Source of the DNA: a virus
Strand: one strand, 5' to 3'
DNA: 42,281 bases
IMG/VR virus record: IMGVR_UViG_3300022745_000064
Coordinates: 1 to 42,281 of that record
A model generated the notes under the pieces. That model had not been told where the DNA came from. It saw only the letters and a list, made by a program, of their open reading frames with translations, and did not search any database. The position numbers were made by a program, and so were the translations under genes. Each line of letters opens with the position of its first letter. Position 1 is the stretch's first letter. Positions 3,600 through 41,266 of this stretch are shown piece after piece.

Positions 3600-5138
3600 T
3601 TAGACCCTCTCCGATTTCCCTAGGAGTCGTTCCGGGTGCTTCAGCACTGCGTGTGCTACGTCACCGTCGGATTGTAGCACGTCATATACCACCTGGTCAA
3701 CTGAGTCCTCAGCTAGCAGGTATGTGAAAGTGGTCATACTCGGGTGTAGCGCGATGCGGTCACACCCCTGGGAGTAGTCAACCCATGAGTGTGTCAGCGA
3801 GTACCACACCATATGGTTGGCCGTAGACAGATCAACGCCTAGGGCTGCTGCAGAGGGCTGAATGAGCATTGCAGCGGGACCTGAGGTGTGCTTGCGGAAC
3901 GCGTACACGTTCTCATCCGTCTGGGAGCGTGGAATGCCCCCACGTAGCTCCCAGAAAGATAGCCCTATGCGCTTACACAGCGCTGCAATGTCATCTAGGT
4001 CGCGTCGGAAACGTGCCGCAATCACAACCTTTGACTCTGCCTCCAGGGTCTCCTCACGGAGGAGCTCCTCCAGCGCGTCAAGCTTTTCCGATCCCACCCG
4101 ATGAGTCTCTACGTAGGTAGTCTCATTCTCTTCGTCTATCTCTTTGGTCCCTACGAACCCTCCAGTGAGCTGCATGAGCCGTAAGGTAACCACCAGGGGG
4201 ATAGCGGCCTCTGCAATCACCCCCTCCCGAATTTGGGTGATCATGTCCCGTGCCATTTCAACGTAGTGCACACGTGAGCTTCCAAGCCTGACCGGTATGA
4301 TACGGGTCTCTTTGGCAGGGAGGTCAAAACAGTCTGCCCGCCTAACGATCACAGCGTCAGCGCCCATCAAACGTTGCACCTCATCTATGCCAGACTGCCT
4401 AGGGGCCACCCACTGTACAATGCCCCCCCGCACAGTCCACCTGCCCGTCTGTTGCTTGAAGGCATCGATGGTAGGTGCAAAGTACTGGAAACGATCCGGA
4501 TTGACCCATTGCCACTGCATGAACAGGTCATGCACACGGGAGGCTTTCGTAACCGGGGTACCAGTCAGAGCAAAGCGGTACTTGAAGGCGGGGGCCATGG
4601 ACACCAGCAGCACGGACGCCTTACCGGCAGGATTTTTTATTTTGTGGCTCTCATCAATGACAGCGGCGGATGGTAGCCCTCCAGCCCTAGCCCACTTCAG
4701 CACGCGCGCACGGGTCTTCATCCTACCGTTAGCGGTGGACCGATGCCCGGATTCCAGCCTCTTACCAGGGGTAGAGAACGCCTCAAAATTGGTAACCACC
4801 ACGTGCAGGTCTACCCCTGGTACCTCAGGGATGTCTTGCTTACGGGCCTTTGCGTCCCAAATCGTGACGTGCACCACCAGTGGGCAATGCGTGTGCAGCT
4901 CATGCAGCCACACCCCCATTACGCGGCTTGGGCACACTACGAGTACCTTCCGTACCCCGTCAACCACGTGCAGGGCACCTAACGTATCGATAGTTGTCTT
5001 GCTCTTCCCGGTACGCGGTTCCATGAGTAGGGCCACACCACCCCCCGCTACCTTATCCCTACGCAGGATCTTGAGCGCACGCATCATCCCGTCACGTTGG
5101 TGTGTGTAAGGGGTAGTGCGGAATTCGTACCGAGGCAC
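3600..5138 (-). CDS. SNF2/DEAD-like superfamily 2 helicase
   Basis: About 512 residues. The SF2 motifs appear in order: Q-like TPYTHQRDGM, motif I MEPRTGKSKTT, motif II AVIDESHKIKN (DESH), motif III ALTGTPVTK, and in the second domain SKVVIAARFR and a motif VI-like QGCDRIAL. This is the SNF2-type helicase or translocase found in many phage replication operons, probably remodelling forks or recombination intermediates. The frame is open to 5219, but that start lies inside the terminator hairpin at 5205-5230. The GTG at 5138 has GGGAG 7 bases upstream and gives the usual N-terminus close to the Q motif, so it is preferred. First gene of the replication operon. Confidence 0.88.
   Translation of the reverse strand: MPRYEFRTTPYTHQRDGMMRALKILRRDKVAGGGVALLMEPRTGKSKTTIDTLGALHVVDGVRKVLVVCPSRVMGVWLHELHTHCPLVVHVTIWDAKARKQDIPEVPGVDLHVVVTNFEAFSTPGKRLESGHRSTANGRMKTRARVLKWARAGGLPSAAVIDESHKIKNPAGKASVLLVSMAPAFKYRFALTGTPVTKASRVHDLFMQWQWVNPDRFQYFAPTIDAFKQQTGRWTVRGGIVQWVAPRQSGIDEVQRLMGADAVIVRRADCFDLPAKETRIIPVRLGSSRVHYVEMARDMITQIREGVIAEAAIPLVVTLRLMQLTGGFVGTKEIDEENETTYVETHRVGSEKLDALEELLREETLEAESKVVIAARFRRDLDDIAALCKRIGLSFWELRGGIPRSQTDENVYAFRKHTSGPAAMLIQPSAAALGVDLSTANHMVWYSLTHSWVDYSQGCDRIALHPSMTTFTYLLAEDSVDQVVYDVLQSDGDVAHAVLKHPERLLGKSERV
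3801..3810 (+). repeat. Dispersed decamer GTACCACACC (14 copies; first copy)
   Basis: Exact copies on the + strand start at 3801, 5382, 9895, 16337, 23295, 24823, 30787, 36544 and 38021; on the - strand they occupy 14953-14962, 20568-20577, 31563-31572, 33903-33912 and 41208-41217. About 0.1 copies would be expected by chance in 42 kb on both strands. Copies fall in genes, read in different frames and directions, and in intergenic DNA (24823, 30787). Flanking bases are not conserved. One-mismatch relatives occur near 6620, 11071, 19796, 21087, 38136 and 41039. Confidence 0.85.
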
Positions 5139-5168
5139 AGACTCACTCCCTGGCGTAGTAGGGCTATC

Positions 5169-5197
5169 AGTGTACCTGCTGAGGAGGCACTGCGCAA
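5169..5197 (-). promoter_or_regulatory. Candidate promoter of the replication operon
   Basis: On the minus strand TTGCGC (5197-5192) and TACACT (5174-5169) are separated by exactly 17 bases, just after the terminator of the lysis operon and about 30 bases before the helicase GTG. The hexamers are imperfect against the sigma-70 consensus. Position is the main support. Confidence 0.4.
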
Positions 5198-5204
5198 TAA
5201 GAGA

Positions 5205-5230
5205 CCCCCTCCACAACATTGGGGAGGGGG
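5205..5230 (-). terminator. Terminator of the virion/lysis operon
   Basis: CCCCCTCC (5205-5212) pairs with GGAGGGGG (5223-5230) around a 10-base loop. Reading leftward, the hairpin is followed by GTCTCTTATT, a T-rich tail. It closes the late operon after the lysin gene and separates it from the helicase operon. Confidence 0.7.
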
Positions 5231-5296
5231 TGCTCAGTAGTAACCCGTGGATCAGACCGGTTACCTATTAGGTTGTACCGGCAGGCTAGCAGAGGG

Positions 5297-6382
5297 CTAG
5301 CTACAGCGCAAGCGCTGTCCGATCCTGATCACGTAGGAAGGGCCTCGTACATGGTTCCTCGCTGCGAGGGTGCGCCAGCCCGTACCACACCTACGTGCAA
5401 TCGGACCAGCAAGGTACTCCCCCGGCCGTACCGTCACCATACGCGGGTGGGATGAGGCGGCTACCCTTGGCACGTTGGCTACACCCCCGCACCCCCAACG
5501 GAGCACCTGTCCTCTACGGATGACGTTAACGTTACGCAGTCCCGTACACCGGCTGATCTCAGCCACGGTGGTTCCATGCCTACGCGCAACCCCAGACACT
5601 GTGTCACCCCTCCTCACGGTGTACGTGGTAGCCCTAGGGAGTGGCTTCACGTCGGGGACGGGTAGGGGGTCATTCCTACGCACGTAGGGCGTGGTGCCTG
5701 GCCGGTATAGCCCGATGTAGCCAGGGGTTGCAGAGTAGTCAAGGTCTACTGTGCCCCCTGCTAGCCGCACCCCATTCCTTACCTGACGTATCACGGCACG
5801 TGGCGACCAACGGCCGTGCGACCACGCGTAAGTCTGCCATAGCTTGGTGTACCCCCGGTTCCACGCGTGGCTGATGTAGCTCCCGTGCGCGTAGACTCCA
5901 GTTAGGTCCTTGCTACCTAGGGTGGCCGCGAAACAGTCGGCGTATGCGTCTACAGTGGCATACTGCCGGGGCTGCACATCAAAGTCAACAGCAACCCCAT
6001 ACACGGTGGTGGTGTTCGGGATCCCTAGGCGTACCAGCGCCGATCGCGCGCGGGAGGCATCGGTAGCGCCAGCCTCGCACCCACCAAGCGTACGGGCTGC
6101 CGTAGTCTCGTAGATGGGTCCCACACCAATGCCAGCCTGCGTTAGGCGGGAGACCTCAGCACGTGAGGTGTACTTACCCCCACTCGTGGTAGGGCTCACG
6201 TACACCATGGCAAACGTTACCCCGGAGGAGAGCAGACTCTCAGGGGAGGGTTTACCCCACGACCAGTCTGCCCCTGCCGCCCACCCTGAGTACCCTGAGA
6301 CAGCCCCCGCTGTGGCAGGTGCTACTAAGATAGAGGCTAGCAACGAAAGTAGCAGGGCTACGATGGTGATAGCGCGTCTCAT
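5297..6382 (-). CDS. Secreted endolysin: DUF1906 domain plus two LysM
   Basis: 361-residue cell-wall hydrolase. The N-terminus is a Sec-type signal peptide: MRRA, a hydrophobic run, then ATAGA near residue 27. Residues about 30-225 match the Rv2525c-like glycoside-hydrolase fold (GADWSWGKPS, VTFAMVYVSP, YGVAVDFDVQP, TGVYAHGSYI). Two LysM repeats follow: TTYTVRRGDTVSGVARRHGT (about 250-298) and MVTVRPGEYLAGPIARRCGT (about 317-360), which bind peptidoglycan. A signal peptide on a phage lysin implies export by the host Sec system, leaving the holin to trigger or depolarise. GGAGG lies 9 bases upstream, and the start overlaps the preceding holin-frame stop (ATGA). DUF1906 hydrolases are typical of actinobacteria and their phages. 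Confidence 0.88.
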   Translation of the reverse strand: MRRAITIVALLLSLLASILVAPATAGAVSGYSGWAAGADWSWGKPSPESLLSSGVTFAMVYVSPTTSGGKYTSRAEVSRLTQAGIGVGPIYETTAARTLGGCEAGATDASRARSALVRLGIPNTTTVYGVAVDFDVQPRQYATVDAYADCFAATLGSKDLTGVYAHGSYISHAWNRGYTKLWQTYAWSHGRWSPRAVIRQVRNGVRLAGGTVDLDYSATPGYIGLYRPGTTPYVRRNDPLPVPDVKPLPRATTYTVRRGDTVSGVARRHGTTVAEISRCTGLRNVNVIRRGQVLRWGCGGVANVPRVAASSHPRMVTVRPGEYLAGPIARRCGTGWRTLAARNHVRGPSYVIRIGQRLRCS

Positions 6383-6657
6383 GACAGCATTCCTCCTAGG
6401 TAGGCGTAGAAGAGTGCGGCTGAGAGGGTTGATGTTCCGGAGACGACGATGGTGGCGTACCAGATACCACGCTCGACACTGCTGTTTGGACGCGTAGCAA
6501 TAAGGATCCCCATAAGGCCGGCCCGGACAGCAGAGCCAGCGATAGGGCTACTTTCTCCGGAGAGATGGTGTTGCATAGCTCTGCGTGCCATATGAGCCAC
6601 AACCCAGCGGTGTAGGATACCAGGTGTGGTATGTGGCTTGCTGCTACGCGTGTCCAT
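6379..6657 (-). CDS. Holin locus, frame B
   Basis: This frame has an excellent start (GGAGG 6 bases before ATG 6657), and its stop overlaps the lysin start by four bases. The last 40 residues look like a genuine membrane segment (RGIWYATIVVSGTST then AALFYAYLGGML). The first half is rich in His, Arg, Ser and Met and does not look like a structured protein, while frame A over the same bases does. Either this is an independent small holin or antiholin, or it supplies only the C-terminal transmembrane segment of a protein begun in frame A by a -1 shift or indel. Confidence 0.5.
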   Translation of the reverse strand: MDTRSSKPHTTPGILHRWVVAHMARRAMQHHLSGESSPIAGSAVRAGLMGILIATRPNSSVERGIWYATIVVSGTSTLSAALFYAYLGGMLS

Positions 6658-6698: not shown

Positions 6699-7949
6699 TC
6701 AGGTGAATACAACGGCAGTAAAGCTAGCCGAGGCAGGGTCAATCGCTGCTGAGGTAACGTTAGCGGCGCGCACCGTAACCGTGTTGGTAGTGCTAACGTA
6801 TCCACAGTAGACAATCCCGTTGGGTGGTGCGGCTGGTAGCCCTAGGGCTACGGCTTGTCCTACGGTAGCCCCGGGTACCGTAATGGTGAGACCGGCGGTA
6901 CTTCCGGCAGCAATGCTACCGAAGTCAAGAGCGGTAGTAACCTTACCCACGATTACGGGGGCGGAGGTGCCTACCAGTGGGGCACCTGTAAACGATACCT
7001 GGTCTATCTGCGTGGCAGCTGATGCGGACTTCTGTACGATGAGTCGCCCGATGAGTAGGCCGTTAGCTGAGACCACAGGGGGTAGCGATTGAGGTGCGGT
7101 AGATGCCTGTGCATTAGCCAGCGTGTAGTCCCCACTACCAAGCACGAAGAATAGGTGATCTTGCGCAATACACCTGTACACCCATACCACAGTGTATCGG
7201 TTAGACGTTAGGGTGGCTAGGTCAGTCCCGTTGTCGTATTGCGTGTTGTTGTACTGCGTTACGTCGGATACCGCCCATGCTCCCCCACTGTGGTACCAAA
7301 ACTCAGTGGGAGTAGTAGAGCTGTTCTGTTCCACCCGTGTTACGCGCCTGGTACCGTGCCACACCACTCCTGAGGTACACGTTACATACCTAGTAGCAGA
7401 CTCACCAAGCAGCAGCCCAGACTCTACCTGGAAGCGCTGTGTGCTAACTACCCTGTGCAGTAGCTTGGAGGGCAGCGTGTTAGCCTGCGTATCCCAATCG
7501 AGCACGTGTACGTCAGTGCCATTGCGAGTCACAGTGAACACCGGTACCACAGTGAGGTAGTCCACCCCGGAGGTGTCAGTGCGTGCCTCCAGTACAGGGT
7601 ACCCATCGTTGTAGTTGACCACGATTGCATACGTGGTGTTGTCGGTCAGGCTGAAGGTGCCCCCGAACACGCTTGTGTACGCTACGGGGAAGTAGAGCCC
7701 TTCCGTGGAGGACTGTAGCGCAAAGATTCCGTAGTCATCCACTGTGATACTGGTGCCATCTACTGCAACCTCATACCCGGGGGCCACCACTACCCCTGAG
7801 CACGCGTAGTCACTCGTGCGCACAAAGGAGGCAGCCGCCAGGCTGCCAAGCTTGTCAGACAGCGCTACCTCAAGCCTAGCTATGCGCGTCTTCAAATCAG
7901 CTATGAGCCGGGGGAACTGGTTTTCCGGTAGGGTGGGACTCTGTGTCAT
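6699..7949 (-). CDS. Tail fibre/receptor-binding-type tail protein
   Basis: 416 residues. A short N-terminal coiled-coil-like segment (LIADLKTRIARLEVALSDKL) is followed by a Ser/Thr/Gly/Val-rich beta-structured body with many short repeats of small residues, as in siphovirus fibre or baseplate appendages. It is the last virion gene before the lysis genes. AAGGAG lies 5 bases before the ATG. No enzymatic motif is seen. Receptor binding is inferred from composition and position only. Confidence 0.6.
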   Translation of the reverse strand: MTQSPTLPENQFPRLIADLKTRIARLEVALSDKLGSLAAASFVRTSDYACSGVVVAPGYEVAVDGTSITVDDYGIFALQSSTEGLYFPVAYTSVFGGTFSLTDNTTYAIVVNYNDGYPVLEARTDTSGVDYLTVVPVFTVTRNGTDVHVLDWDTQANTLPSKLLHRVVSTQRFQVESGLLLGESATRYVTCTSGVVWHGTRRVTRVEQNSSTTPTEFWYHSGGAWAVSDVTQYNNTQYDNGTDLATLTSNRYTVVWVYRCIAQDHLFFVLGSGDYTLANAQASTAPQSLPPVVSANGLLIGRLIVQKSASAATQIDQVSFTGAPLVGTSAPVIVGKVTTALDFGSIAAGSTAGLTITVPGATVGQAVALGLPAAPPNGIVYCGYVSTTNTVTVRAANVTSAAIDPASASFTAVVFT

Positions 7950-7958: not shown

Positions 7959-9119
7959 TTACCCTACAAGCCCGTCAATGCTGTCCCCGTTGGATACGGT
8001 TGGTAGCCCTAGTACCAGCGTCGCTGAGCCTACCTGCCGCACTGAGCTTGGGGTTATGGTTAGCTCAGTCACCCTACCTGACAGCGTGGCACCCATAGGA
8101 TGCAGTACTGAGGTACCGGGTAGTACTTTTATGTAGGCGTTCATTCCTGGCGCCAGCATGGTAGGAGGGCTGGAAGGTGAGGTGAGTAGCTCCACCGTGG
8201 TAGCTACCCTCCGACCCGCAGAAGTTACCTCAGTTACAGCGTGAGCAGTAAGAGTGGCTAGGTCAGTTATGCCTGAGCCAACGAAAGAGCTACTCCCCTC
8301 TAGCACGGGAAGCCCTAGGCTGTAGTCTCCGTATCCTACCGCTCTTGCTGCCATCTGACCTGTGCCGTCGGGCAGGTCACCCACCGCTACCACGTCGTTA
8401 ACCCGAGACTCATAGTCCTCCGGAGTGGAGTAGTCAGTTACCACCCCTGGGAAAAAGGAAACTAGGTCGGGTACCAGTGTAAGCCAGGGGTACCCAAAGT
8501 ACAGTCTGTGGGTTAGCACCCCCGAGATGAGCTCAGGTCGAAAAGCGTACTCCAGGTTGCACGTATCCCTTAGGTTAGCCATGGCTTCAGACGCTACGGG
8601 TAAGTCGGAGAACTTGTAGGTTCGGGTAACTGAGGTACCTGCTAGCGTCTCTGGATCAACAGACAGATTACCGATCTCTCCATGCGGACCCTTGTCGGTC
8701 GTAACCCGTGTGATGATGTCCCGTAGGATATCAAAGGGGTCCGCATTGGTGTACACGAGGTCAGACGGGGGTGTGGGATCATAGTCCCCTACCCACACCC
8801 CAGTGAGCTTCCTCTTAGCCAGCAGTGAGGGGAGCGTTTTTACAACCATAGGCAGGTCACCCCGTGCGGAGGTTGCCTGCCACGCCCATATGATGCCCGC
8901 CCATACTGGGGTGTTTCTGTACAGCGCCCATAAGACTGTCTTACCAGGCTGCAACACACTCGCGTACCTGGAGAGTAGGACACCCGGTAGTGTGGCACTC
9001 AGCTCTCCCGTTCCGTCCATTCTGAGTGTCATGGACGGCACCACAATGGGAACTGTATCCATGAGCAGTTCCCCTGTGACTAGGTCAGTAGTTGCGTAGG
9101 TCCAAGATGCGGTATTCAA
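7959..9119 (-). CDS. Minor tail protein (Gp37-like tail-tip/hub)
   Basis: About 386 residues. The body resembles the siphovirus Gp37-like tail proteins of actinophages: PSMTLRMDGTGELSATLPG, then LYRNTPVWAGIIWAWQ, PFDILRDIITRV, and a C-terminal PGMNAYIKVLPG. These sit at the tail tip and are thought to form part of the hub. The frame is open to 9227, but that region overlaps the upstream fibre gene and lacks a ribosome site. TTG 9119, with GAGGTTGGGG ending close upstream, is the best start, though uncertain. Confidence 0.65.
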   Translation of the reverse strand: MNTASWTYATTDLVTGELLMDTVPIVVPSMTLRMDGTGELSATLPGVLLSRYASVLQPGKTVLWALYRNTPVWAGIIWAWQATSARGDLPMVVKTLPSLLAKRKLTGVWVGDYDPTPPSDLVYTNADPFDILRDIITRVTTDKGPHGEIGNLSVDPETLAGTSVTRTYKFSDLPVASEAMANLRDTCNLEYAFRPELISGVLTHRLYFGYPWLTLVPDLVSFFPGVVTDYSTPEDYESRVNDVVAVGDLPDGTGQMAARAVGYGDYSLGLPVLEGSSSFVGSGITDLATLTAHAVTEVTSAGRRVATTVELLTSPSSPPTMLAPGMNAYIKVLPGTSVLHPMGATLSGRVTELTITPSSVRQVGSATLVLGLPTVSNGDSIDGLVG

Positions 9120-9163: not shown

Positions 9164-10348
9164 TTACGTGAAGCTCCAGTTGCAGTTGTAGGTAAGGTCT
9201 AGATAGTGGGTTGAGGCCCACGTCCAAGGGACGGTAGGGGTAACTGTGTTTAGAGCTCCAGACGCCGCAGTTGGTAGGTAGGCTGACAACACAGTGCCAC
9301 TGTATGCGTAGGAAATACCCTGGACCTTAGATGTTCCGGTACCTACTGCCTGTCCCCACGTATGTACTGCGTTAAGCAAGGTGATCCCGGGGGGCCCTGA
9401 CACCGTCCATTGTCCGGTACCGAACGTGGTGGTGGTACCGAAGGGGCCGATTCGCACCCTAAGGTTGATGGTACTCCCCACCCTGAAGTACCCACCCTGT
9501 GCAGCGGTCCCATTGCCGATAGCCGGCTGAGGGTTACTCAGGCTAGCCCACGTTGGGGTATACGTCTTCCACTCAGTATCCATCAGGAACAGCCAGGCTC
9601 CGCTAGCCCTGAGGTACAGTGTCTTGGTGTCAGTCTCAAAGATAACGACACCGTTACGAACCTTCGAAGGGCGTGTAGCCGACGTGCACTGGTGGGCTGA
9701 TCGTAGCAACGCGTCAACACCACTGATCCCCAGTGTGAGTGACCCTAGGGCAGGGTCAAAAAAGAGCTGCCCATCTGGGTAGTGGGAAGGCGTTTCCCCT
9801 GTAGCGAGTGGAAGCACCCCTCCGCTGGACACCGTGAATACCCGAGAGTCCGTAATGTTACCCGCGCTGATAGAGGTAACACCGGCCCCTACAAGTACCA
9901 CACCAAGTAGCAGTGAGTCATTGGGAGTGGTAGGAACCACAGGGGAAGCAGCGGCAGTACCCGTTACGCTGTTCATGGTGTACGTAGATGACGAGGTACC
10001 CACGTCAACAATGGTGATGACTACCAGGTCATACCGGGGGTAGGTAGGGTGCGCAGTAGCAAGCGTAACGCAGGGAGACAGTGGGGTATCATTGGTTACT
10101 AGCCAAGGGACCCCTGAGCTAGACGACAGTACTGAGCACGACCCTGCGTTGAGGCTGAGGGTAAGGCCGGAGTATGGTACCACCTTCAAGGGGTCCCCAG
10201 CGGCAGGAAACACACCACCCCTATACCCTGGTTGCGTAGCCTTTCCCACGTTGGAGAGGGATGCTGCCATGCCCTTACGGGCTACCTCAGCACTGGTAGA
10301 CACCCCGTCTAGCCACAAGGGCACAGCCGTTGAGTTACCTACTACCAT
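9164..10348 (-). CDS. Tail fibre/baseplate protein
   Basis: 394 residues, beta-rich. The N-terminal half (VPLWLDGVSTSAEVARKGMA, later YPRYDLVVITIVDVG) resembles baseplate-attached appendage proteins. The C-terminal half (WKTYTPTWASLSNPQPAIGN, GGYFRVGSTINLRVRIGPFG, TTFGTGQWTVSGPPG) matches a domain common at the C-terminus of actinophage tail proteins. AAGGAG lies 7 bases before the ATG. Located directly after the Dit-like gene, consistent with a tail-tip appendage. Confidence 0.62.
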   Translation of the reverse strand: MVVGNSTAVPLWLDGVSTSAEVARKGMAASLSNVGKATQPGYRGGVFPAAGDPLKVVPYSGLTLSLNAGSCSVLSSSSGVPWLVTNDTPLSPCVTLATAHPTYPRYDLVVITIVDVGTSSSTYTMNSVTGTAAASPVVPTTPNDSLLLGVVLVGAGVTSISAGNITDSRVFTVSSGGVLPLATGETPSHYPDGQLFFDPALGSLTLGISGVDALLRSAHQCTSATRPSKVRNGVVIFETDTKTLYLRASGAWLFLMDTEWKTYTPTWASLSNPQPAIGNGTAAQGGYFRVGSTINLRVRIGPFGTTTTFGTGQWTVSGPPGITLLNAVHTWGQAVGTGTSKVQGISYAYSGTVLSAYLPTAASGALNTVTPTVPWTWASTHYLDLTYNCNWSFT

Positions 10349-10359: not shown

Positions 10360-11259
10360 TTACACCTCATAGCCGTAGCGCCACGATATGGATCCGAGCC
10401 CTGTGAACGAAGTAGTAGCCATAGCCACAATAGTTAGCCCGGACGGAAAGGTTATCCAGGTGGAATCCAGCGTAGCTGCTACCGGGGTGCTCCCGTTATA
10501 CAACGCGTACTGCTGGTCAAATCTGATGTCAAGGGTGTCTCCTTCGTATAGCTCACAGTTGAAGAGCGTACGCCTTCCGTCTGAGGTTACGATGCCCGGG
10601 TTCACCTGGGGTCCAACGAGTAGTGCTGTCACTGCTGCGTCAATGTTACCCTCGTTATTGATGTATGCCCAGATTGACTGTGAGGATGCTGGGAACTCAA
10701 TCGGAGGAACTACAGGGAACTCAATTCCGGTGGGAGGCGAGGGAGGTGCTAGCTCTATACTGTAGAAATCGTAGGATAGCGCACGCGGATCAGGGGATAC
10801 CAGACCGATGGTAAATTCTACAGAGGTAGCGCTGATACGCCGCTCTAGGATGCGACCGGAGCGGAACACCAGAGGGAAGTACTTAGGCGTGGGCTCGTCT
10901 ACCAGCAATGAGGAGCCTACCAGTGCCTCTGTGTACTGAAGGTCAAACATTGCGTTGTTGAAAGGTAGCACCTTGCGCACAAGATCTCTCGCGTAGTCCC
11001 TTGCTACCAGTGATGGACAAACCGCAGTTACCTTGAGCGTCATTACCCTAGGCTCAAGAAACTGGGAGGATACCACACCACCGTGTCTGTTCGGGAACGA
11101 CATGAGAGTGGAGGTGATGTCCCCTCCGTAATCGATATCGTTCAGGAACCAGTCAATACCGGTGGCGTCGTCACGGTAGCCGAATTGGATGGCATACCCG
11201 GAGGAAGCAGCCGTAAGGGTGCACGTCCGGGTTGTGTCCGATACTAGGCGAGTGCCCAT
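10360..11259 (-). CDS. Distal tail (Dit-like) minor tail protein
   Basis: 299 residues, directly downstream of the tape measure gene, the usual Dit position. Features include YAIQFGYRDDATGIDWFLND, SFPNRHGGVVSSQFLEPRVM and VEFTIGLVSPDPRALSYDF, typical of siphovirus tail proteins that form the first ring at the tail tip, with a Pro-rich linker (LAPPSPPTGIEFPVVPP) before a C-terminal beta domain. AGGAGG lies 6 bases upstream of the ATG. Confidence 0.75.
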   Translation of the reverse strand: MGTRLVSDTTRTCTLTAASSGYAIQFGYRDDATGIDWFLNDIDYGGDITSTLMSFPNRHGGVVSSQFLEPRVMTLKVTAVCPSLVARDYARDLVRKVLPFNNAMFDLQYTEALVGSSLLVDEPTPKYFPLVFRSGRILERRISATSVEFTIGLVSPDPRALSYDFYSIELAPPSPPTGIEFPVVPPIEFPASSQSIWAYINNEGNIDAAVTALLVGPQVNPGIVTSDGRRTLFNCELYEGDTLDIRFDQQYALYNGSTPVAATLDSTWITFPSGLTIVAMATTSFTGLGSISWRYGYEV

Positions 11260-11261
11260 TT

Positions 11262-14200
11262 TCAGCCTCCTAGTACCCAGCCAAGTTGCCTCAGCATATC
11301 AGCCCTACCCTCTGGAGTGCCAGGATCCGCATAGACATTGATAACTGTACTCTGCCGCTTGAGTGCTGTGTCAAGAGCTGCCTTCTTTGCCGCCTCATCC
11401 TTAGCTGCCTCAGCAGCCTTCTTCTGGTCCTTAGGCAGTGCCTCGCGTAGCCTGCTGATGTCCTTGGAGTCTCCGGACAGGTCACGCCCTACCCTGCCTA
11501 GGTTCGTCTGTGCAGCCGCTAGAGCTTTCTTGTCCTTGGCTACCTGGTCTGCTAGGCGTGCGCGTAGCTTCTTCCCGTGTGCGTGGTTCAGCGCGGTGGT
11601 ATCCGCGCGTAGCTTATCTGCATCCGCCTCTACCACACGCTGAGCTGCCGCGCGCTTAGCCTGGTCTGCTGCATACCGAGCACTAGCCTTAGCTAGATCC
11701 TGAGTGTCCCTGGCTACCCTGCCCTGTGCATCCGTACGAGACGCGGTAGCCTTCCCAAGCGCTCCACGCGCTTTTGCCACACCCTCAGCAGCAGCCTTCT
11801 TAGCTGAGTTGAGCAGGGAAGGTAGCAGGGTTTTCGTGATGGCGTTCACAGCTGCCGCCGCAATGGCTGTCATCTGCTTCTCGATAGCACTCTGCTGTGC
11901 CTTGATACCGTCCACCAGGCCTTTAGCCGCGCTAACCGCTCCGCCATACAGGCTGTTAGCTACTTGGGTAGCCTCACCCTTGGCAGCCTCGCTGAGGCGC
12001 TTCTGTAGTTCGTTGATCTTCTTTAGCTCTGCGGGTGTTGCACTCGCTAGGTTGTGAGCTGTAGCGGCGCCGGACACCCCTGAGTTAGCCAGCTGTGCAA
12101 GTAGGTCCTTGCTAAGCCCTGCTTTCGTGAGCTTGGCAATATCAGCCTTCAGCTGCTCAGCGCTGGTTACCGTTCCGGTCAGCTTGTCAATTACACCCTT
12201 TACAGTATCGTTCTCCCCCAGTTGTACCGCGTCCATGACCCCCTGGAAAGCACGTGAGTACTGATCACTCCACGCCCCTTGCGCTTCCGTGAGCTTACCC
12301 TGTGCAGCTTTCATCTTGTCTGACAGCACGCCCGACGCATAGGTTAGCTTGGTTAGCGCTGTCTGATACCCATCTGCAATGGAGGAGACGAGAGACTTTG
12401 TGCTAGCGGTGATGGAGCCCCCTGCGAAAGCCTCTGCTAGGTACCCCTTGAGTCTGGTAACCGTGCTCTTCACAGAAGAGAGTTTTGAGAGCCCGGAGGA
12501 AAGCCCCTCTACCAGGAAGCTACCCATCTGCTCCATCACCTTGGAGGGTGACTGGATACCCATCGCTGACTTGAACGCATCGATAAAATTGTGCGCCATC
12601 TTACGCGCGGTGTCTGCGACCCATCCGACCCCCCGCTCCAAGCCAGCCACGATGGCGTGCACCATGTTCATCCCACGGTCAAAGAAATCCTTGCCGATGT
12701 CACCAATCCTACCCGGAATGCTCTCTACCAGGCTGGCTACCCAATGTACTCCGTTGGATAGGCCATCGCGTAGCGCTGCCATCGCTGAGGTGCCTAGGGC
12801 TAGCAGCCTACCGGGCAGTGTGCTCAGGTAGGCGGCCACCCGGCTAGGGACTGTAGCCACAAATCCTAGGATGGTGGCCACACCCCGTGCGAATGTGGTG
12901 CTCAGGAGCGCCCAGAGTGCTGAGGCAGCCCCAACGACCCTCCCCGGTAGGTTTACGAAAAACCGTACGATGGTACCCAGCCCAGTACCTACGAGGGTAG
13001 CCAGCCCTGTTAGCGCCAACTGGAATAGCCTAGCAATGAGGCCTGGTAGTGCTGCCAAGGCGCCCCCGATACGGGAGGGTAGGTTACTGAACCAGGTTAC
13101 TACCCCGTTGAACGTGTTAGGCAGGGTAACCGTTAGGAACGTAACAATGGTGCGGTACACGTTGGCTACAAACGACGTGATAGCGGTAGCAGCCTGACCT
13201 ATCATCCCGATGAACTTCACCGCTGTGAAGATACCAAAGGCTGCCACCATAGCCGCGATAGCTCCTACCACCACAACAGTACCCGCTACGAAAGCGGTGA
13301 TAGCACCCACGGCTAGGAGTAGCCCTTGCAGCAGAGGCTTAATCCAATCCTGGTTTTTGTTCCAGAACTCTACGAGAGCCTCAAATGCTGGCTTGAGCCC
13401 TTTCTCCCACGCGTCAGTAGCAGCCTTGACAACCTTAGGCCAGCCTACCTCAAATACCGTGTGAAGCACATCACCGATGGTACGCACTGCGGAGGAGACA
13501 AAGGAGGCAGCAGCCTTGAACGCAGCGACCACCATAGGGCCATACTTTGTCACTACCTGGTTAGCAATGCGGAGAAAGGAGGTACCGAAGCGGACCAGGG
13601 AGGCTACCGCATTCTTGGTCCAATCAGAGGTAAGGGCCTTAAGCAAGGCTGCCTTAAGGGTGCCCACATACCCAGTGATTTTGGTAACCCAGGTCTGCAC
13701 TGGGGTAGAGTTCCAAACCTTTGACAGCGCGTCCTTGGCCTGAAACCCGAAGAAAAGGAGTTTACCGCCAAGCGCTGTTAGGTTAGCCTCTGAGACACGC
13801 TTGAACCTCTCCCATGCCGCCTTAGGCGAGGATGCCAGGGTGTCAGCAGCAGCCTTCGTAGCCCCTGCAAAGTCACCCATCTCAGCTGAGGCCGTTTTCA
13901 GGTCTAGCGCAAAGAGGGAGCTGCCTAGGTCCTCAGCCTTCGTTCCAAATAGGGCTACTGCTGCCTGTGACCTCTTGAGTGGGTCGGGCATGGCCCTAAG
14001 GCGGTCTAGCACGGTCTGTAGCCCCTGGGCAGCAGCAGGTCCGCCCTTAGCAAAGACAGCAGCAGTCTTAGCGGCGTCTAGCCCTAGGGCTTTGAACCCT
14101 TCAGCAGTTGTCTTCGACCCGTCAACAGCCCGGATGCTGAATTCCTTCAGTCCATCTGCCAGGAAGTCTGAGTCTCTGGCACCTGCCTTGATACCTTGAG

Positions 14201-24816: not shown

Positions 24817-24882
24817 ACTTAAGTACCACACCAACTAGTAGCCTTCACAGCCTAGCCTTGGTTCAGGGGGAAGGTGTTGGGC

Positions 24883-35271: not shown

Positions 35272-35580
35272 TCACTCGTTACCGGTGGGGATGCTGAGGT
35301 TGTTGCATGCCCGATCAAGCGAGGCACGGACCACGGAGTAGGTGGCGTGCAAATCTGCCGGGAGTGTGCTGGTGAGCTGAGCGGAAGACCGATCAAGGAA
35401 CATACACCACGACGTCTGGTCAGGCGTGCTCATAGAGGCCAACCAGGTGGTTAGCGTCCGCACAACTGCCTCACTCGGGAGGCTCGGAGTCGATGCAGGC
35501 TCTGTGGTGTGGCAACCGACCGTAGCGCTAAGCACTGCGGAGACGAGGGGGATAAGCGTGATGGTAGTCTTGCTGTTCAT
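35272..35580 (-). CDS. Phage-encoded lipoprotein
   Basis: 102 residues from ATG 35580, with AAGGG 7 bases upstream; the longer frame is not supported. The N-terminus is a lipoprotein signal: MNSKTTITLIPLVSAVLSAT then VGC, so Cys 23 would be lipidated. The mature part is a small helical domain with two further Cys (PDQTSWCMFLDRSSAQL and ASLDRACNNLSIP) that could form a disulphide. Phage lipoproteins often act in superinfection exclusion by blocking DNA entry, but that role is only inferred here. Confidence 0.72.
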   Translation of the reverse strand: MNSKTTITLIPLVSAVLSATVGCHTTEPASTPSLPSEAVVRTLTTWLASMSTPDQTSWCMFLDRSSAQLTSTLPADLHATYSVVRASLDRACNNLSIPTGNE

Positions 35581-35665: not shown

Positions 35666-36286
35666 CTAGTTGGTGGTATAGAACTCCCGTGCTGCGGACT
35701 GAAGGGCCGACCAGTAGGCGGCACTACTAGACGACTGATAGGCCTCCGCTAGGGCAGCCCAGTCAGTGTCGAGCGTGAAACTCTGGCATCCGCAGAACAC
35801 CGTGCCGTCGGGAAGGGCTACCAGCAGCCCCCATTCTGTACGGATGGAGAACAGCAGGCTGCTCAGACGGACATCGTACAGGTTGGCACCGCGCAGGTTG
35901 GCGTTGATCAGGTTGGCACCGCGCAGGTCAGCGTTGCGCAGGTAGGCGTCGCTCAGGTTGGCACCGTGCAGGTCAGCGTTGCGCAGGTCAGCGTTGCGCA
36001 GGTAGGCGTCGCGCAGGTGGGCACCGTGCAGGTTGGCGCCGTGCAGGTCAGCGTCGCGCAGGTTGGCACCGTTCAGGTAGGCGCCGCACAGGTCAGCGTT
36101 ACTCAGGTTGGCACCGTGCAGGTTGGCACCGCGCAGGTTGGCACCGTTCAGGTAGGCGCCGCACAGGTCAGCGTTACTCAGGTTGGCGCCGTGCAGGTCA
36201 GCGTCGCGCAGGTTGGCGTTGCGCAGGTTGGCATCGTGCAGGTTGGCAGACGGCTTGAGTCTGTGGTTAAGGACTACTCGTAGCAT
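35666..36286 (-). CDS. Pentapeptide-repeat protein (25 repeats)
   Basis: 206 residues. After MLRVVLNHRLKPS come 25 uninterrupted five-residue units of the A(N/D/Y)LXX type (ANLHD ANLRN ... ANLYD), which fold into a right-handed quadrilateral beta helix. A non-repeat C-terminal domain of about 70 residues follows (LFSIRTEWGLLVALPDGTVF, TDWAALAEAYQ). A 75-bp block is tandemly duplicated inside the repeats (around 36067-36141 and 36142-36216), showing growth by slippage. AAGGAG lies 6 bases before the ATG. Some repeat proteins of this type (MfpA, Qnr) mimic DNA and bind gyrase; whether this one does is unknown. Confidence 0.88.
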   Translation of the reverse strand: MLRVVLNHRLKPSANLHDANLRNANLRDADLHGANLSNADLCGAYLNGANLRGANLHGANLSNADLCGAYLNGANLRDADLHGANLHGAHLRDAYLRNADLRNADLHGANLSDAYLRNADLRGANLINANLRGANLYDVRLSSLLFSIRTEWGLLVALPDGTVFCGCQSFTLDTDWAALAEAYQSSSSAAYWSALQSAAREFYTTN

Positions 36287-36361: not shown

Positions 36362-37429
36362 CTAGTTGCCTCTCGGTTGCTGGTACTCACCCGACCACAC
36401 AGAATGCCAGTGTCTAGCCATCCCTTCGGTAAGGGTGTAAGAGCGCTGCACAAGCTCTAGGTTCCTAGCCACAACGTCTAGCTTGTGCTCCTTGGAGGCG
36501 TTTAGCATCTCCCGTGTTACTCGGCGCCAATCATGGGGGGCAGGTACCACACCACCCGCGAACAGGGGTGTAGGGTGCGATAGGTGTACTAGGTGGTCAG
36601 AGTACACGGGTATGATCCCACAGGCCGCATACTCAATCAGGCGGGTAGGGCTCTTTCCGTTGTTGAACTTCCGGCCACTCAACGGGGACAGCCCTATCTG
36701 GCCACTGTAGTTAAGACGTAGGTTCCGGTAGTGCTCATCTACGCTATCCACCCACCCGTGGTGCACCGACTCATGTCGACGCACCAGCAGACTGAAGTCG
36801 TGCCCCACAGAGGTGAAGGTGAAAGGCTCGTCTAGGCGGTCTACTAAGCGGAACGCCTTATGCACATCATCGTGGTGGGATGAGCCCCCACTGAACAGCA
36901 CCCGATTAGGGCGTAGTTGCACCGTACCTGCTTCCGGGAACATGAAATCGTGAGGCAACACGATGGGCACCACGTAGATCTTGCCCTTATCGATACCTAG
37001 CTCCTCCGAGAGTGCCCACCGTAGGTAGGGGGTAGCCACCACGATACGGTCTGCCCTGCGTAGGTTGCGCACCAGGGCGTCAAGGCGGTCAGGGGTATAA
37101 AAACGGAAGGGGTCAACATACTGGTTCACATCCCACAGGGCATCGTCAAGCTCAACGACAACCAAGGGGCGATGGGCCATAGGGGACAGGCCAGTTAGCC
37201 CCTCAATGAGCGTGGTAACACTTGGGGTGCACGGCCGTTGGAACACAATGGACTGGTAGCCACCGAGGCTCCTAGGGTCCAATGTACTGCGTAATGTGGA
37301 CGGATCAAGATGATCTTGAGGCCACGCTACGTGAGGCGCCACCGATGGGTGCGCGGCGGGCACAGAGAACCGGTAGTGCTTGCACGCGTCGTTGCCCGCT
37401 GGAACCAGCAGTACCTTACCAGAGTTCAT
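36362..37429 (-). CDS. Glycosyltransferase (GT-B type, group 1-like)
   Basis: 355 residues from ATG 37429, which overlaps the preceding stop (ATGA) and has GGAGG 8 bases upstream. The fold is indicated by an N-terminal Rossmann start (KVLLVPAGNDACKHYRFSVP), a mid-protein acceptor region (VVVELDDALWDVNQYVDPFR, RADRIVVATPYLRWAL), and a nucleotide-sugar domain (PNRVLFSGGSSHHDD, GQIGLSPLSGRKFNNGKSPT, RLIEYAACGIIPVYSD) with the E-x7-E-like motif replaced by FNNGKSPTRLIEYAACG. It may glycosylate a virion protein, phage DNA or the host wall; context does not decide. Confidence 0.82.
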   Translation of the reverse strand: MNSGKVLLVPAGNDACKHYRFSVPAAHPSVAPHVAWPQDHLDPSTLRSTLDPRSLGGYQSIVFQRPCTPSVTTLIEGLTGLSPMAHRPLVVVELDDALWDVNQYVDPFRFYTPDRLDALVRNLRRADRIVVATPYLRWALSEELGIDKGKIYVVPIVLPHDFMFPEAGTVQLRPNRVLFSGGSSHHDDVHKAFRLVDRLDEPFTFTSVGHDFSLLVRRHESVHHGWVDSVDEHYRNLRLNYSGQIGLSPLSGRKFNNGKSPTRLIEYAACGIIPVYSDHLVHLSHPTPLFAGGVVPAPHDWRRVTREMLNASKEHKLDVVARNLELVQRSYTLTEGMARHWHSVWSGEYQQPRGN

Positions 37430-37683: not shown

Positions 37684-38391
37684 GTGTTAGTTGAGATGAT
37701 TTCGTACACCGTGTTCATGCCACCGAAGAGTGTTCCCTTTCGTCCAGTATTGGGAGCCTCGCAGATGGGTAGCCTAGCAGAGTTTGCGGGTAGGGCATGC
37801 TACGCCTCATGGTCTCGCCCAAATAAGGACACAGATACTCCAGAGTCCTATGTAAGGACGAACCTGCTAGGAAAGGGTCATCTATCGGTTCTTGAGCATG
37901 GGTCCGTTGGGTTCTACCTGAGCGGGGTATCCAGGTCGCTAACCCACGAGTTGGTGCGCCACCGACATTTTTCGTACTCTCAGCTATCACAGCGCTATGT
38001 GAGCATGATTGACGCGGAACGTACCACACCACCCTCGCTGGAGGGGTGCCCGGAGCAACAGAGGCAGCTTGACCAAGTGTGGGAGCACTCGCAGGCCGTC
38101 TATATCTCCCTGGCAGAGTACTTGCACGTGGAGTGTGGTACCTCTCGAAAAGAGGCGTTTGAGGCTGCCAGGGCAGTGCTGCCAAACATGACCCCTACCA
38201 GTATCGTAGTTACTGGAAATCTACGTTCGTGGCTTGAGTTCCTGCTCAAGAGAGGGAGCAAGTACGCGGACAAGGAGATTTACGCCCTGGCTGTAGAGGT
38301 GTGGCAGCAGCTACACCGCGTGTGTCCTGAGGTGTTCAAGAACGTGGTATTTGATGAGGCTGGAAACTTGGCGTTGCGCCTAGCCAGTTGA
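37684..38391 (+). CDS. thyX: Flavin-dependent thymidylate synthase ThyX
   Basis: 235 residues from GTG 37684 (GGAAGG 7 bases upstream); the frame is open to 37654 but without a site. The ThyX signature RHRHFSYSQLSQRY (RHRxxSxxxxSxR) is intact, as are VRTNLLGKGHLSVLEHGSVG (FAD and folate region) and the C-terminal EFLLKRGSKYADKEIYALAV. It converts dUMP to dTMP using FAD and NADPH, with dUMP supplied by the phage deaminase and dUTPase-like enzyme. Transcribed rightward and followed by a terminator and the tRNA region. Confidence 0.95.
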   Translation: MLVEMISYTVFMPPKSVPFRPVLGASQMGSLAEFAGRACYASWSRPNKDTDTPESYVRTNLLGKGHLSVLEHGSVGFYLSGVSRSLTHELVRHRHFSYSQLSQRYVSMIDAERTTPPSLEGCPEQQRQLDQVWEHSQAVYISLAEYLHVECGTSRKEAFEAARAVLPNMTPTSIVVTGNLRSWLEFLLKRGSKYADKEIYALAVEVWQQLHRVCPEVFKNVVFDEAGNLALRLAS

Positions 38392-38557: not shown

Positions 38558-38638
38558 GCCAGCGTGGCGGAATGGGATACGCGCGGGTCTTAGGAACCCG
38601 TAGGGAAACCTATGTGAGTTCGAATCTCACCGTTGGCA
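38558..38638 (+). tRNA. tRNA-Leu, anticodon UAG
   Basis: GCCAGCG (38558-38564) pairs with CGTTGGC (38631-38637), with discriminator A. The anticodon stem CGGGT/ACCCG closes the loop CTTAGGA, giving anticodon TAG (reads CUA). A class II variable arm (TAGGGAAACCTA) and T arm GTGAG-TTCGAAT-CTCAC are present. CCA is not encoded. CUA is visibly frequent in the phage genes, so this tRNA may relieve a rare codon in the host. Confidence 0.95.
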
Positions 38639-38640
38639 CT

Positions 38641-38744: not shown

Positions 38745-38816
38745 ACCCTCTTAGCTCAGGGGAAGAGCCCCGGTTTTACACACCGGTGGTCGCTGGTTCG
38801 AATCCAGCAGGGGGTA
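38745..38816 (+). tRNA. tRNA-Val, anticodon UAC
   Basis: ACCCTCT (38745-38751) pairs with AGGGGGT (38809-38815), discriminator A. D arm GCTC-AGGGGAA-GAGC; anticodon stem CCGGT/ACCGG with loop TTTACAC, giving anticodon TAC (reads GUA); T arm GCTGG-TTCGAAT-CCAGC. CCA is not encoded. GUA is frequent in phage genes. Confidence 0.95.
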
Positions 38817-38934
38817 CGGCTTGTGAGGTTGGTGCGCTTGACTCTTGGTAAGGGTCAACTTACTGACAACGAACGTAACCGGTCTAGTGTCAGTACCGGG
38901 AAGGGGAAGGCTGCTTCACATCCTGAGAAGTGTC
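38817..38934 (+). other. Structured non-coding tail of the tRNA region
   Basis: No ORF. It contains TTGAC/GTCAA and TACTGACA/TGTCAGTA stems. The second resembles the TACTGA...TGTCAGTA hairpin of the RNA between the tRNAs, and both blocks end in GAAGTG followed by C or T and CTA, so this may be a diverged copy. Confidence 0.4.
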
Positions 38935-38935
38935 T

Positions 38936-38962: not shown

Positions 38963-38965
38963 TTA

Positions 38966-39148
38966 CTATGCCCTGTGCTGTGCGATGTGAGCACGGATGA
39001 CCTTGATCTGTGCAGAGACGGGAAGCCTGGTTATGGGCAGGAACCCTCCCCACGGGCATGCAGGGTCGGGGCATCGGCAGGACACCTCCCCAGACACCAC
39101 CGCAGGTACGAAGTCGTCTACACACAGCCTACGGTGGTACCTAGGCAC
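38966..39148 (-). CDS. 60-residue zinc-finger-like protein
   Basis: GTG 39148 with GGGAGG 6 bases upstream, overlapping the VRR-NUC stop by 8 bases. The product has a Cys cluster (VSCRCPDPACPWGGF) and a helix with paired His (KVIRAHIAQHR), the spacing of a small zinc finger. DNA binding next to a nuclease gene is plausible. No specific family recognised. Confidence 0.68.
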   Translation of the reverse strand: MPRYHRRLCVDDFVPAVVSGEVSCRCPDPACPWGGFLPITRLPVSAQIKVIRAHIAQHRA

Positions 39149-39458
39149 AGTGGGCCTCCCTAAAGGCAGTGAACCAGTCTTTGACCTCTGCCAGGGACCA
39201 GGCAACCAACACGTGCCCTCCGGCCCTCATGATGTCGGTGTGGCACTTGAGCTGCCGGGGGCTGCACGGTTCCTCATTGGCAGAGTAGCTACTCCTTACT
39301 TTCATCTCTATCCATATAGAGTAGCCTCTCCAGGTTGCGTGGATGTCTGGCAGCCCCGCACGCTGTCTAGACCCCCCATGCAGCTTCACAGCAAACGCCC
39401 CACACGCCGTTAGGTAGTCGACCACCGACCGGCTCAGCCGGGCCTCAGGCTGGCTCAC
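39141..39458 (-). CDS. VRR-NUC (PD-(D/E)XK) nuclease
   Basis: 105 residues from GTG 39458 (AGGAG 5 bases upstream). Motifs are an N-terminal helix (EARLSRSVVDYLTACGAFAV), KLHGGSRQRAGLPDIHATWR (the PD of the active site), SIWIEMKVR (ExK), and SPRQLKCHTDIMRAGGHVLV. VRR-NUC enzymes of this size are found in phages as structure-specific nucleases or Holliday-junction resolvases. It lies downstream of the recombination operon, after a terminator. Confidence 0.88.
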   Translation of the reverse strand: MSQPEARLSRSVVDYLTACGAFAVKLHGGSRQRAGLPDIHATWRGYSIWIEMKVRSSYSANEEPCSPRQLKCHTDIMRAGGHVLVAWSLAEVKDWFTAFREAHCA

Positions 39459-39481
39459 AGACTCTCCTACATTGGGTAGCA

Positions 39482-39525
39482 ACCAGCCCGGTACGCGTGG
39501 TGAGGATACCGCGTACCGGGCTGGT
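39482..39525 (-). terminator. Terminator after the Lsr2-like gene
   Basis: ACCAGCCCGGTACGC (39482-39496) is perfectly complementary to GCGTACCGGGCTGGT (39511-39525), a 15-bp stem. It ends the long leftward replication operon; the nuclease gene beyond it would depend on read-through or its own promoter. Confidence 0.75.
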
Positions 39526-39534
39526 CAGGGTAGG

Positions 39535-39930
39535 TCAGGCGCGCTTGCCAGGGGCCACGCCATCCCCATCGACGATGACGATGTCCCCCAGGGTCTCAGG
39601 ATCCGGAATGCTCTCCGTGCCCTCAGTCGGCCCCTCAGCCTGAGCAGCCGCGTACTTGGCGAGCACCTCAGCCGACACTCGGCCCTTCGGGGACACCTCG
39701 ATTCCGTTCTCAGCCGCCCACGCGCGTACCGCAGTCAGGTCTACGGAAGGCTTGGTTACGATCTCCATAGCCTTATCGATGAACGGCGCAAGTGCAGCTT
39801 CCAGCGCATCCATGTTGGCATCGGTCAAGTCGATGCGGAAGCGCCGATCACCGATGGTGAACAGACGCGGAGACGCACCCGCCGAACCATCCATGTCGTC
39901 CTTGACGATAACAGTGCGCTCGATAGCCAT
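39535..39930 (-). CDS. Lsr2-like nucleoid-associated protein
   Basis: 131 residues. The N-terminal dimerisation domain of Lsr2 is recognisable (VIVKDDMDGSAGASPRLFTI, RFRIDLTDANMDALEAALAP), as is the C-terminal DNA-binding helix pair with its AT-hook-like loop (LTAVRAWAAENGIEVSPKGR, VSAEVLAKYAAA); the usual R-G-R reads K-G-R here. Unlike host Lsr2 it carries an acidic C-terminal tail of about 30 residues (EGPTEGTESIPDPETLGDIV). Lsr2 is an H-NS-like silencer of AT-rich DNA in actinobacteria; a phage copy could antagonise host silencing or organise phage DNA. GGAG lies 8 bases upstream. Confidence 0.85.
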   Translation of the reverse strand: MAIERTVIVKDDMDGSAGASPRLFTIGDRRFRIDLTDANMDALEAALAPFIDKAMEIVTKPSVDLTAVRAWAAENGIEVSPKGRVSAEVLAKYAAAQAEGPTEGTESIPDPETLGDIVIVDGDGVAPGKRA

Positions 39931-39932
39931 GC

Positions 39933-40460
39933 TTAGATCTCCTCTAGATCAACGAAGTCGTCCTCTACGGCAGGCGCCGGAGCGGTAGGGGTCTCCTTAC
40001 GCGCTGGAGGGGCGGTAGTGGTGTGTGCCTCAGCAGCGGGGGAAACCGACGGTTCAGAGCTTACCTCAGTAGAGGGGAACCATGCAACAACCTCGCTCTG
40101 AAGTCGTTCCTTGTATTCGGTGTCCCCAAGGGTTACCCCCAGTAGCAGCCCGACCACAGACGCAGCGTTGAGCCTCACCTTAGACTTCGGAACAACCTTA
40201 CCTGTGGCGAGGAACAACGACCGGATCTTCCATAGCTTGGAAGCGTCGCTTACGTCGCAGAACACTTCGTAGGTAGCAGACCGGTGCTCCTCCAACTGAA
40301 TGAGGTACACCCAGAAGACAGTAGGAACGTCGTCGACTGTCTTGACGTACTCCCGCACACCGGAAATCCGGGCGAGGTACTCTCCTGAGGGAAGGTGCTT
40401 CTTACTCGCGTTGCTTTCAGTGACATTGGTGAAGTCAAGCACCCTAGGTTCGATGGTCAC
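39933..40460 (-). CDS. Single-stranded DNA-binding-like protein
   Basis: 175 residues. An OB-type domain is suggested by HLPSGEYLARISGVREYVKT, FWVYLIQLEEHRSATYEVFC and DASKLWKIRSLFLATGKVVP. It is followed by a disordered Ala/Pro/Thr linker and an acidic tip (VEDDFVDLEEI), the hallmark of SSB proteins that recruit partners. It lies between the Sak4-like ATPase (GTGA overlap) and the Lsr2-like gene, as SSB-like partners of annealing ATPases often do. Confidence 0.72.
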   Translation of the reverse strand: MTIEPRVLDFTNVTESNASKKHLPSGEYLARISGVREYVKTVDDVPTVFWVYLIQLEEHRSATYEVFCDVSDASKLWKIRSLFLATGKVVPKSKVRLNAASVVGLLLGVTLGDTEYKERLQSEVVAWFPSTEVSSEPSVSPAAEAHTTTAPPARKETPTAPAPAVEDDFVDLEEI

Positions 40461-41266
40461 GTAGCCGTACCTTTCATCATCTCTACTACCTTTGGAACGG
40501 TGGGATTAGCCAGGAAGGAAGGGGCGCCCTTGGTAGGGGTACGAAACCCGGCCTCACAGTTCACTGAGGGGGCGACCCACAGTCTACGCTCTGTGGTAGT
40601 ACGTGTCACTACCTCGCCGGTACTTTTCTGCCGGAAGGATTTCTCTACGGGGGCAGTATACATCCTACCAATGAGGCTTACCTGGGAGCACACAGCGATG
40701 CGCGCCTTATTGGGAAGGTCAGGTGCCAGGAACCCATTCAGTGCGTCAGCATCGTCATCTGACTCAGCGCCCTGGTACACAACCATGCGCTCCTGCGCGG
40801 TGAAAATCAGCCCATAGGGTAGGCTCATCAGGTTATAAATTAGCCCTGACATGAGTTCGCCCGCCTGCCCCCACTCCGGTTGAGTGATCTTCCCCGGCTT
40901 GGAGTCTAGTTTACGCTCCGCACTGAGACCCGTGACGAAGCGTAGGGCGTACATGTGCATCTTGCTCAAGCCATCAAACGCAACCCACTCATACGTGCGC
41001 TTGGTGGCAGGGGATACGAACCCTGGTGTTTTCAGCGTGTGGTACACGTCGTTGATAGCATCCCATGACCCCACGTCCCACACATCCGGGTTGTCACCAG
41101 TCTCGGCCTCGGTACCAAACTCAGGGTCAATCACCAGGAGGTTTGGCGCTGAGCACGCCAAGCGGGTCTTTCCAATCTTGGCACGCCCGTAGAACAGCAA
41201 CCGGGGTGGTGTGGTACCCGGCTTCCGTATTGCTTTGGCCGCTAGGTCTAGGTACTTGTTAGCCAT
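40457..41266 (-). CDS. Sak4-like RecA-fold annealing ATPase
   Basis: 269 residues from ATG 41266, which overlaps the nuclease stop (TGATG) with GGAGG close upstream. Walker A is RLLFYGRAKIGKTRLA; the strand carrying PNLLVIDPEFGTEAE corresponds to the Sak4 acidic motif; TYEWVAFDGLSKMHMYA is Walker B-like. LIFTAQERMVVYQGAESDD and a C-terminal RRLWVAPSVNCEAG follow. Sak4 proteins work with phage SSB in single-strand annealing recombination, and the SSB-like and nuclease genes here adjoin it. Confidence 0.85.
   Translation of the reverse strand: MANKYLDLAAKAIRKPGTTPPRLLFYGRAKIGKTRLACSAPNLLVIDPEFGTEAETGDNPDVWDVGSWDAINDVYHTLKTPGFVSPATKRTYEWVAFDGLSKMHMYALRFVTGLSAERKLDSKPGKITQPEWGQAGELMSGLIYNLMSLPYGLIFTAQERMVVYQGAESDDDADALNGFLAPDLPNKARIAVCSQVSLIGRMYTAPVEKSFRQKSTGEVVTRTTTERRLWVAPSVNCEAGFRTPTKGAPSFLANPTVPKVVEMMKGTAT

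Follow-up and report, generated by a model that had tools for sequence, protein, structure and literature searches.

We analysed the whole of IMG/VR record IMGVR_UViG_3300022745_000064, a phage genome of actinophage type whose 42,281 nucleotides are referred to here as the window, and found that it is dotted with a 7-bp word, CCACACC (GGTGTGG on the other strand), that is a real signal under selection, phage-borne, regular in its spacing on each strand and linked to a replication module. Presence and absence across relatives tie the word most tightly to one member of that module, an AEP primase. We favor the possibility that the dispersed sites are priming sites of this RepB'-type enzyme, a reading that comparative sequence evidence makes fairly probable.

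A selected word in the window

A sequence-only reading of the window had singled out a decamer, GTACCACACC, in 14 exact copies, nine on one strand and five on the other, and we recovered all of them. Nine lie on the + strand, at 3801-3810 (core 3804-3810), 5382-5391, 9895-9904, 16337-16346, 23295-23304 (intergenic), 24823-24832 (intergenic), 30787-30796, 36544-36553 and 38021-38030 (within thyX), and five on the - strand, at 14953-14962 (intergenic), 20568-20577 (within the portal gene), 31563-31572, 33903-33912 (within the primase-helicase gene) and 41208-41217 (within the RecA-like gene). This is the commonest 10-mer of the window; the runner-up, CAGGTTGGCA, stems from a tandem repeat in a pentapeptide-repeat gene (35666-36286) whose 15-nt units mimic an enriched motif, and the commonest 9-mer is GTACCACAC (19 copies). 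The dispersed excess stood, while the earlier expectation of about 0.1 copies gave way to values that depend on the null model: 0.2 under a dinucleotide shuffle, 0.5 under an order-3 Markov model, a mean of 1.0 (maximum 4 in 200 shuffles) when each protein and the codon usage are preserved, and a mean of 3.5 (maximum 8) in a very conservative shuffle that preserves codon junctions too and leaves many codons unmoved.

These shuffles bear on the idea that codon usage, repeated peptides or mutational bias create the word. GTA is unusually common in this phage (30% of Val codons, with a phage tRNA-Val(TAC)), and the frames at coding sites are not random, G-V-V being encoded at 5 of 7 antisense sites and T-T-P at 3 of 3 sense sites. 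The initial claim that the copies fall in different reading frames must be amended for this bias, but its point survives, as the codon shuffle excludes a protein-level cause. The idea is refuted by the synonymous shuffles, by conservation across phages and by even spacing, and we give it almost no chance of being correct.

The earlier reading was also right to see a genome-wide signal free of amino-acid constraint, but the unit under selection is the 7-bp core rather than the decamer, with flanks that are specific to the window, RGTNCCACACCA. CCACACC is the most over-represented 7-mer of the window, with 43 exact copies distributed 29:14 by strand. Besides those inside the decamers, exact cores lie on the + strand at 311-317, 1727-1733, 2797-2803, 4908-4914, 5033-5039, 6121-6127, 7359-7365, 8793-8799, 11073-11079, 11777-11783, 12878-12884, 15662-15668, 17726-17732, 19849-19855, 20179-20185, 23303-23309 (overlapping the decamer at 23295-23304), 27739-27745, 29597-29603, 32938-32944 and 41961-41967, and on the - strand at 1419-1425, 3291-3297, 6623-6629, 8770-8776, 18959-18965, 26553-26559, 35506-35512, 38298-38304 and 39237-39243. 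A degenerate motif fitted by expectation-maximisation has RGTNCCACACC(A) as its informative part, with position 3 free and about 46 expected sites. The flanks differ between phages: the window has GT-N, Triscuit and Shrew have T, and Emalyn adds an A after the core. The widest invariant part of the signal is TGTGG, which is shared by the word variants GGTGTGG, CCTGTGG and TGTGGCT. GTACCACACC is the window's local form of this shorter cross-phage signal, CCACACC/GGTGTGG.

Ten of the 14 exact decamers lie in genes and four outside them; with 11% of the DNA non-coding, this is not a strong promoter association. The site at 30787 does sit just before a start codon, as had been claimed (10 bp upstream of the - strand gene starting at 30776), but it is the only one to do so and adjacency to starts fails as a rule. 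Relative to transcription, 8 of 24 coding degenerate sites have the same orientation and 16 the opposite one. At 12 of the 14 exact sites position 23, counted from the start of the decamer, is a G (uncorrected p 1e-4); this base was considered as part of the signal and dropped when it failed to hold in a wider set of sites.

Distribution across phages and hosts

Relatives were gathered by alignment-based scans; scans with single proteins (terminase, portal, capsid, primase, PolA) gave few or no loci. The sequence-only reading had named absence from close relatives as a refutation, and the outcome depends on which relatives are meant. The word is essentially absent from relatives in structural genes: phages related through terminase (42-51% identity) hold 3 copies of the decamer in 1.18 Mb, and GTNCCACACC occurs 0-3 times per whole record among them as against 23 times in the window. 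In relatives of the replication module, on the other hand, the core is the top word. Nearly every sequence with a PolA at least about 39% identical to that of the window has CCACACC in one of the first few places among roughly 1000-2500 tested 7-mers, with a 4- to 7-fold excess, and the core ranks first or second in most PolA relatives and in 8 of 8 cultured phages: GTE2, Emalyn, Cozz and Lauer (Gordonia), Muddy (Mycobacterium), Zuko (Streptomyces), Triscuit (Microbacterium) and Shrew (Curtobacterium). These eight phages of five host genera carry 40-76 copies each. Synonymous shuffles gave the same answer as in the window, with 43 copies observed in Emalyn against 17.4 (maximum 26) and 40 in Muddy against 14.5 (maximum 23).

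The signal is phage-borne and not derived from the host. Our reasoning for this is that: (i) in Ghobes, which grows on the same Gordonia strain as Emalyn with a different replication set, CCACACC ranks 2160th; (ii) D29, where it ranks 865th, yields the known stoperator core CTGTCAA/CTTGACA as its top word, so the method does detect genuine dispersed sites; (iii) it is not enriched in samples of the Streptomyces and Amycolatopsis chromosomes; and (iv) the decamer is enriched in none of 297 actinobacterial genomes. This last result led us to discard the hypothesis of a host word. The top words that Ghobes does have are not evenly spaced.

Conservation, spacing and strand

Emalyn and Cozz share 82% DNA identity, and 27 of their 36 aligned sites (75%) are exactly conserved, compared with a fraction of 0.32 for GC-matched control 7-mers, only 1 of 262 of which was conserved as well as CCACACC. 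Between Emalyn and Lauer (75% identity) site positions have mostly turned over at unchanged density. The sites are also more evenly spaced than chance allows. In the window the coefficient of variation of the spacing is 0.58 against an expected 0.97, with none of 3000 simulations as low, and over 33 sequences the pooled z for excess evenness is -7.2 for all sites and -5.8 and -6.3 for each strand alone. Adjacent sites alternate between strands above chance (z -5.2), and 31 control frequent 7-mers were on average clustered (z +3.2). Evenness on each strand separately indicates a signal that is read with polarity or in single-stranded form. The raw counts show a strong orientation bias in the Gordonia phages, but a strand-specific composition model explains most of it; we therefore did not rely on it, and set it aside as a proof of replication polarity. 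A mild excess of GGTGTGG remains on the structural-gene strand whatever the transcription (51/10.0 vs 20/7.9 observed/expected in leftward segments).

The strand-by-strand evenness is one of several observations that speak against sites for a double-strand DNA-binding protein, whether a stoperator-like repressor or a nucleoid-like architectural protein, as the sequence-only reading had suggested. The resemblance is genuine as far as it goes: the stoperators of cluster A phages (L5, D29) are likewise short, asymmetric and dispersed in actinophages, and their number is comparable (24 in L5; PMC3029335). However, stoperators are mainly intergenic and keep one orientation to transcription (PMC3029335), whereas the sites described here lie mostly within genes and in both orientations. 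For a repressor one would not expect the site to stay the same 7-mer in phages whose PolA proteins are only 40-47% identical, and a duplex binder gives no reason for evenness on each strand. No repressor or integrase was recognised among the proteins scanned, which were not searched for them systematically. As for a nucleoid site of the Lsr2 type, 5 of the 7 core positions are G+C as against an AT-rich target, and for none of the binders that had been proposed (Lsr2, two zinc/HTH proteins and a SAP/Rho_N protein) did tblastn find a relative in the remaining motif phages that were examined. We regard a duplex-binding protein as improbable. The phage Lsr2 is encoded at 39535-39930 (Pfam E 1.5e-12), and the neighbouring zinc-ribbon/HTH proteins (26525-26899 and 26887-27399) are related to HNH-endonuclease families, with no catalytic HNH recognised in them.

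Two further kinds of dispersed phage sites call for comparison. Programmed single-strand nick sites, such as those of tf, phiKMV and T5, come in similar numbers and lengths (words of 9-10 bp, about 14 of them; tf has a 9-mer 14 times, PMC3517423), but they are confined to one strand, while here both strands carry sites (9:5 for the exact decamer, 29:14 for the core), and an explanation along these lines is very unlikely. The start-associated sequences of cluster K phages are asymmetric 13-bp repeats present 11-19 times per genome; they differ in being placed at translation starts and in the right arm only (PMC3203893).

The replication module and its primase

The module that accompanies the motif consists of a DNA polymerase I (PolA; 198-2708, - strand), an SNF2-family helicase (3600-5219, -), a primase-helicase (32010-34256, +), an Hjc/VRR-type resolvase (39141-39482, -), a protein related by tblastn to the SSB-like gene of Emalyn, Muddy and Shrew (39933-40460, -), a RecA-like ATPase (AAA_24, Sak4-type; 40457-41269, -) and a PD-(D/E)XK exonuclease of the Cas4 family (41266-42240, -). 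The primase-helicase is the candidate reader. Its N-terminal domain (residues ~1-300 of 748) aligns with those of other motif phages, whereas the helicase parts differ, being DUF3987 in the window and AAA_25 in Emalyn. By profile and predicted fold this domain is a RepB'-type AEP primase: the profile matches RepB' of plasmid RSF1010 (3h20, E 1e-9), the predicted structure (mean pLDDT 86) has the same entry as its best PDB match (E 3e-9), with the S-2L PrimPol next and then RepB' with initiator DNA, and the primase residues D91/D93 and the motif LLRxPGTxNxK are conserved.

Several lines of evidence show that the motif goes with the module and, by presence and absence, most tightly with this domain. 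Every complete motif-bearing genome encodes an AEP domain. A word containing CCACA is among the top two 7-mers in 41 of 51 sequences with the domain, in 1 of 7 without it and in 1 of 46 of the terminase-relative background. The one exception without the domain (G353, L223-L224) has the motif (CCCACAC, CCACACC) on a 38-kb contig that lacks terminal repeats and is probably incomplete. Conversely, a 43-kb IMG/VR record (G355, behind L121) is probably a complete genome, given that its ends repeat over 127 nt or more, and retains the PolA, Cas4, RecA-like, SSB-like and SNF2 genes; a profile search found no AEP domain in it, the primase slot is occupied by a DUF3854+AAA_25 protein that PHROGs places near phage primases, and the motif has been lost, with only 3 CCACACC in 43 kb. 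Furthermore, five phages from four bacterial groups, picked solely by a tblastn match to the AEP domain, all have a top 7-mer that contains CCACA, as the link to the primase predicts: GGCCACA in each of Golden and Teagan (Microbacterium), GCCACAC in Opt-155 (Serratia), and CCACAGG in each of LS06 (Desulfofustis) and Strzyga (Brevundimonas). Distant relatives of the module have AGCCACA or CCACAGG. A module relative that lacks the domain (G375, L251-L254) has a frequent word of its own, ACCCTGAG (CCCTGAG 24 vs 5.2), which is possibly another replication signal.

Putative priming sites or a possible Chi-like signal

In the scheme that we favor, the primase-helicase would read GGTGTGG as a single-stranded template and primer synthesis would start there. 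Recognition would rest on TGTGG, which contains the GTG proposed as the start point of RSF1010 RepB', together with flanking bases specific to each lineage, and a putative priming site would be available every 1-3 kb on each strand that is exposed, chiefly on the template of the lagging strand.

There is precedent for both the enzyme and the kind of signal. RepB' of RSF1010 is a sequence-specific primase for ssiA and ssiB, with GTG as the proposed start point (PMC4434180), and the PrimPol of phage NrS-1 requires an 8-nt template word (PMC7102993). The likeness to RSF1010 extends from profile and fold to the GTG in the site and to sites on both strands that are read strand-specifically; the differences are that RSF1010 has a single 40-nt hairpin site per strand, as against some 20-100 short sites per genome without a conserved hairpin here, and that the primase here forms one protein with a helicase domain. 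NrS-1 likewise has an AEP enzyme that recognises a long word in its template, but that is another word with two genomic copies, whereas the present one occurs about once per kb and is conserved across many phages. Since the RepB' sites and the NrS-1 word have been described, the kind of signal is known. We found no report of a dispersed, regularly spaced array conserved over dozens of phage lineages in the open-access literature searched, and a search for the word itself returned primers only.

A number of observations weigh against this assignment. About 3 nt suffices for most primases. The sites do not match an RSF1010-like 40-nt hairpin, as neither conserved flanks nor paired arms are seen more than about 3 nt from the core. 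Ten of the 51 sequences with the AEP domain, several of them short, have no clear CCACA word in their top two. The primase swap is a single genome, G355, and its DUF3854 is presumably itself a primase domain, of TOPRIM-like type. The five phages picked by the AEP domain also carry PolA, exonuclease, ATPase and helicase genes and so cannot separate the primase from the module. Lastly, the CCACACC label changes once on the PolA, RecA-like, Cas4, SNF2 and SSB-like trees and twice on the primase tree; the gene trees nevertheless fail to single out a reader, because an approximately unbiased (AU) test did not reject a single primase clade of CCACACC carriers (AU p 0.19).

The main rival is a phage-encoded Chi-like signal, in which the Cas4-family exonuclease, the SNF2 helicase and the RecA-like ATPase would process DNA ends and a polar GGTGTGG would attenuate degradation and load the recombinase. 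Chi had been named in the sequence-only reading, and it is still a live alternative: GGTGTGG is a G-rich, asymmetric, over-represented genome-wide 7-mer resembling the Chi sites of RecBCD/AddAB, the sites are uniform along the genome, their evenness on each strand would suit any polar signal, the mild residual excess on the structural-gene strand points the same way, and so do the single label changes on the trees of PolA, the SSB-like gene and the would-be processing genes. Nevertheless, Chi is normally a feature of host genomes and the enrichment that this predicts did not appear in the host DNA tested (the window's own host has not been identified), the orientation bias is largely compositional, and G355 has lost the motif while keeping its exonuclease, helicase and RecA-like genes. 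We consider a Chi-like role unlikely, if less so than the other alternatives.

With regard to the priming-site reading, we lean, by a little, towards a broader version of it, in which the primases of a wide group of phages with actinobacterial, proteobacterial and desulfobacterial hosts would read a 7-8-nt word kept near-regularly every 1-3 kb per strand throughout the genome. Such an array would amount to a sequence-programmed map of Okazaki-fragment starts, with the word drifting slowly between lineages (CCACACC, CCACAGG, GCCACA). If this is true, it would explain a conserved word that is prominent in phages in wide use, including the therapeutic phage Muddy, and a phage's choice of lagging-strand start points would become a sequence that can be mapped, predicted and edited. 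The link between primase family and recognition word would also be a simple genomic signature, with which phages could be classified independently of their hosts and the specificity of a primase read from the sequence by itself.

Other features of the window

A 126-nt exact suffix repeat (24-149 and 42156-42281) indicates a circular or nearly circular record or a terminally redundant assembly. Two tRNA genes, tRNA-Leu(TAG) at 38558-38639 and tRNA-Val(TAC) at 38745-38817, match the unusually high use in phage genes of the codons CTA, 25% of those for Leu, and GTA. A 98-nt inverted repeat pair (25280-25377/34860-34957) is 97% complementary and contains a near-palindrome, AACACTACGGAAGCC...GGCTTCCGTAGTGTT; a second inverted pair (27986-28093/34073-34180) spans 108 nt at 79%. 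Finally, AGCCCTAGG/CTAGGGCTA is over-represented window-wide, with 9-10 copies against about 1, which is unusual for CTAG.

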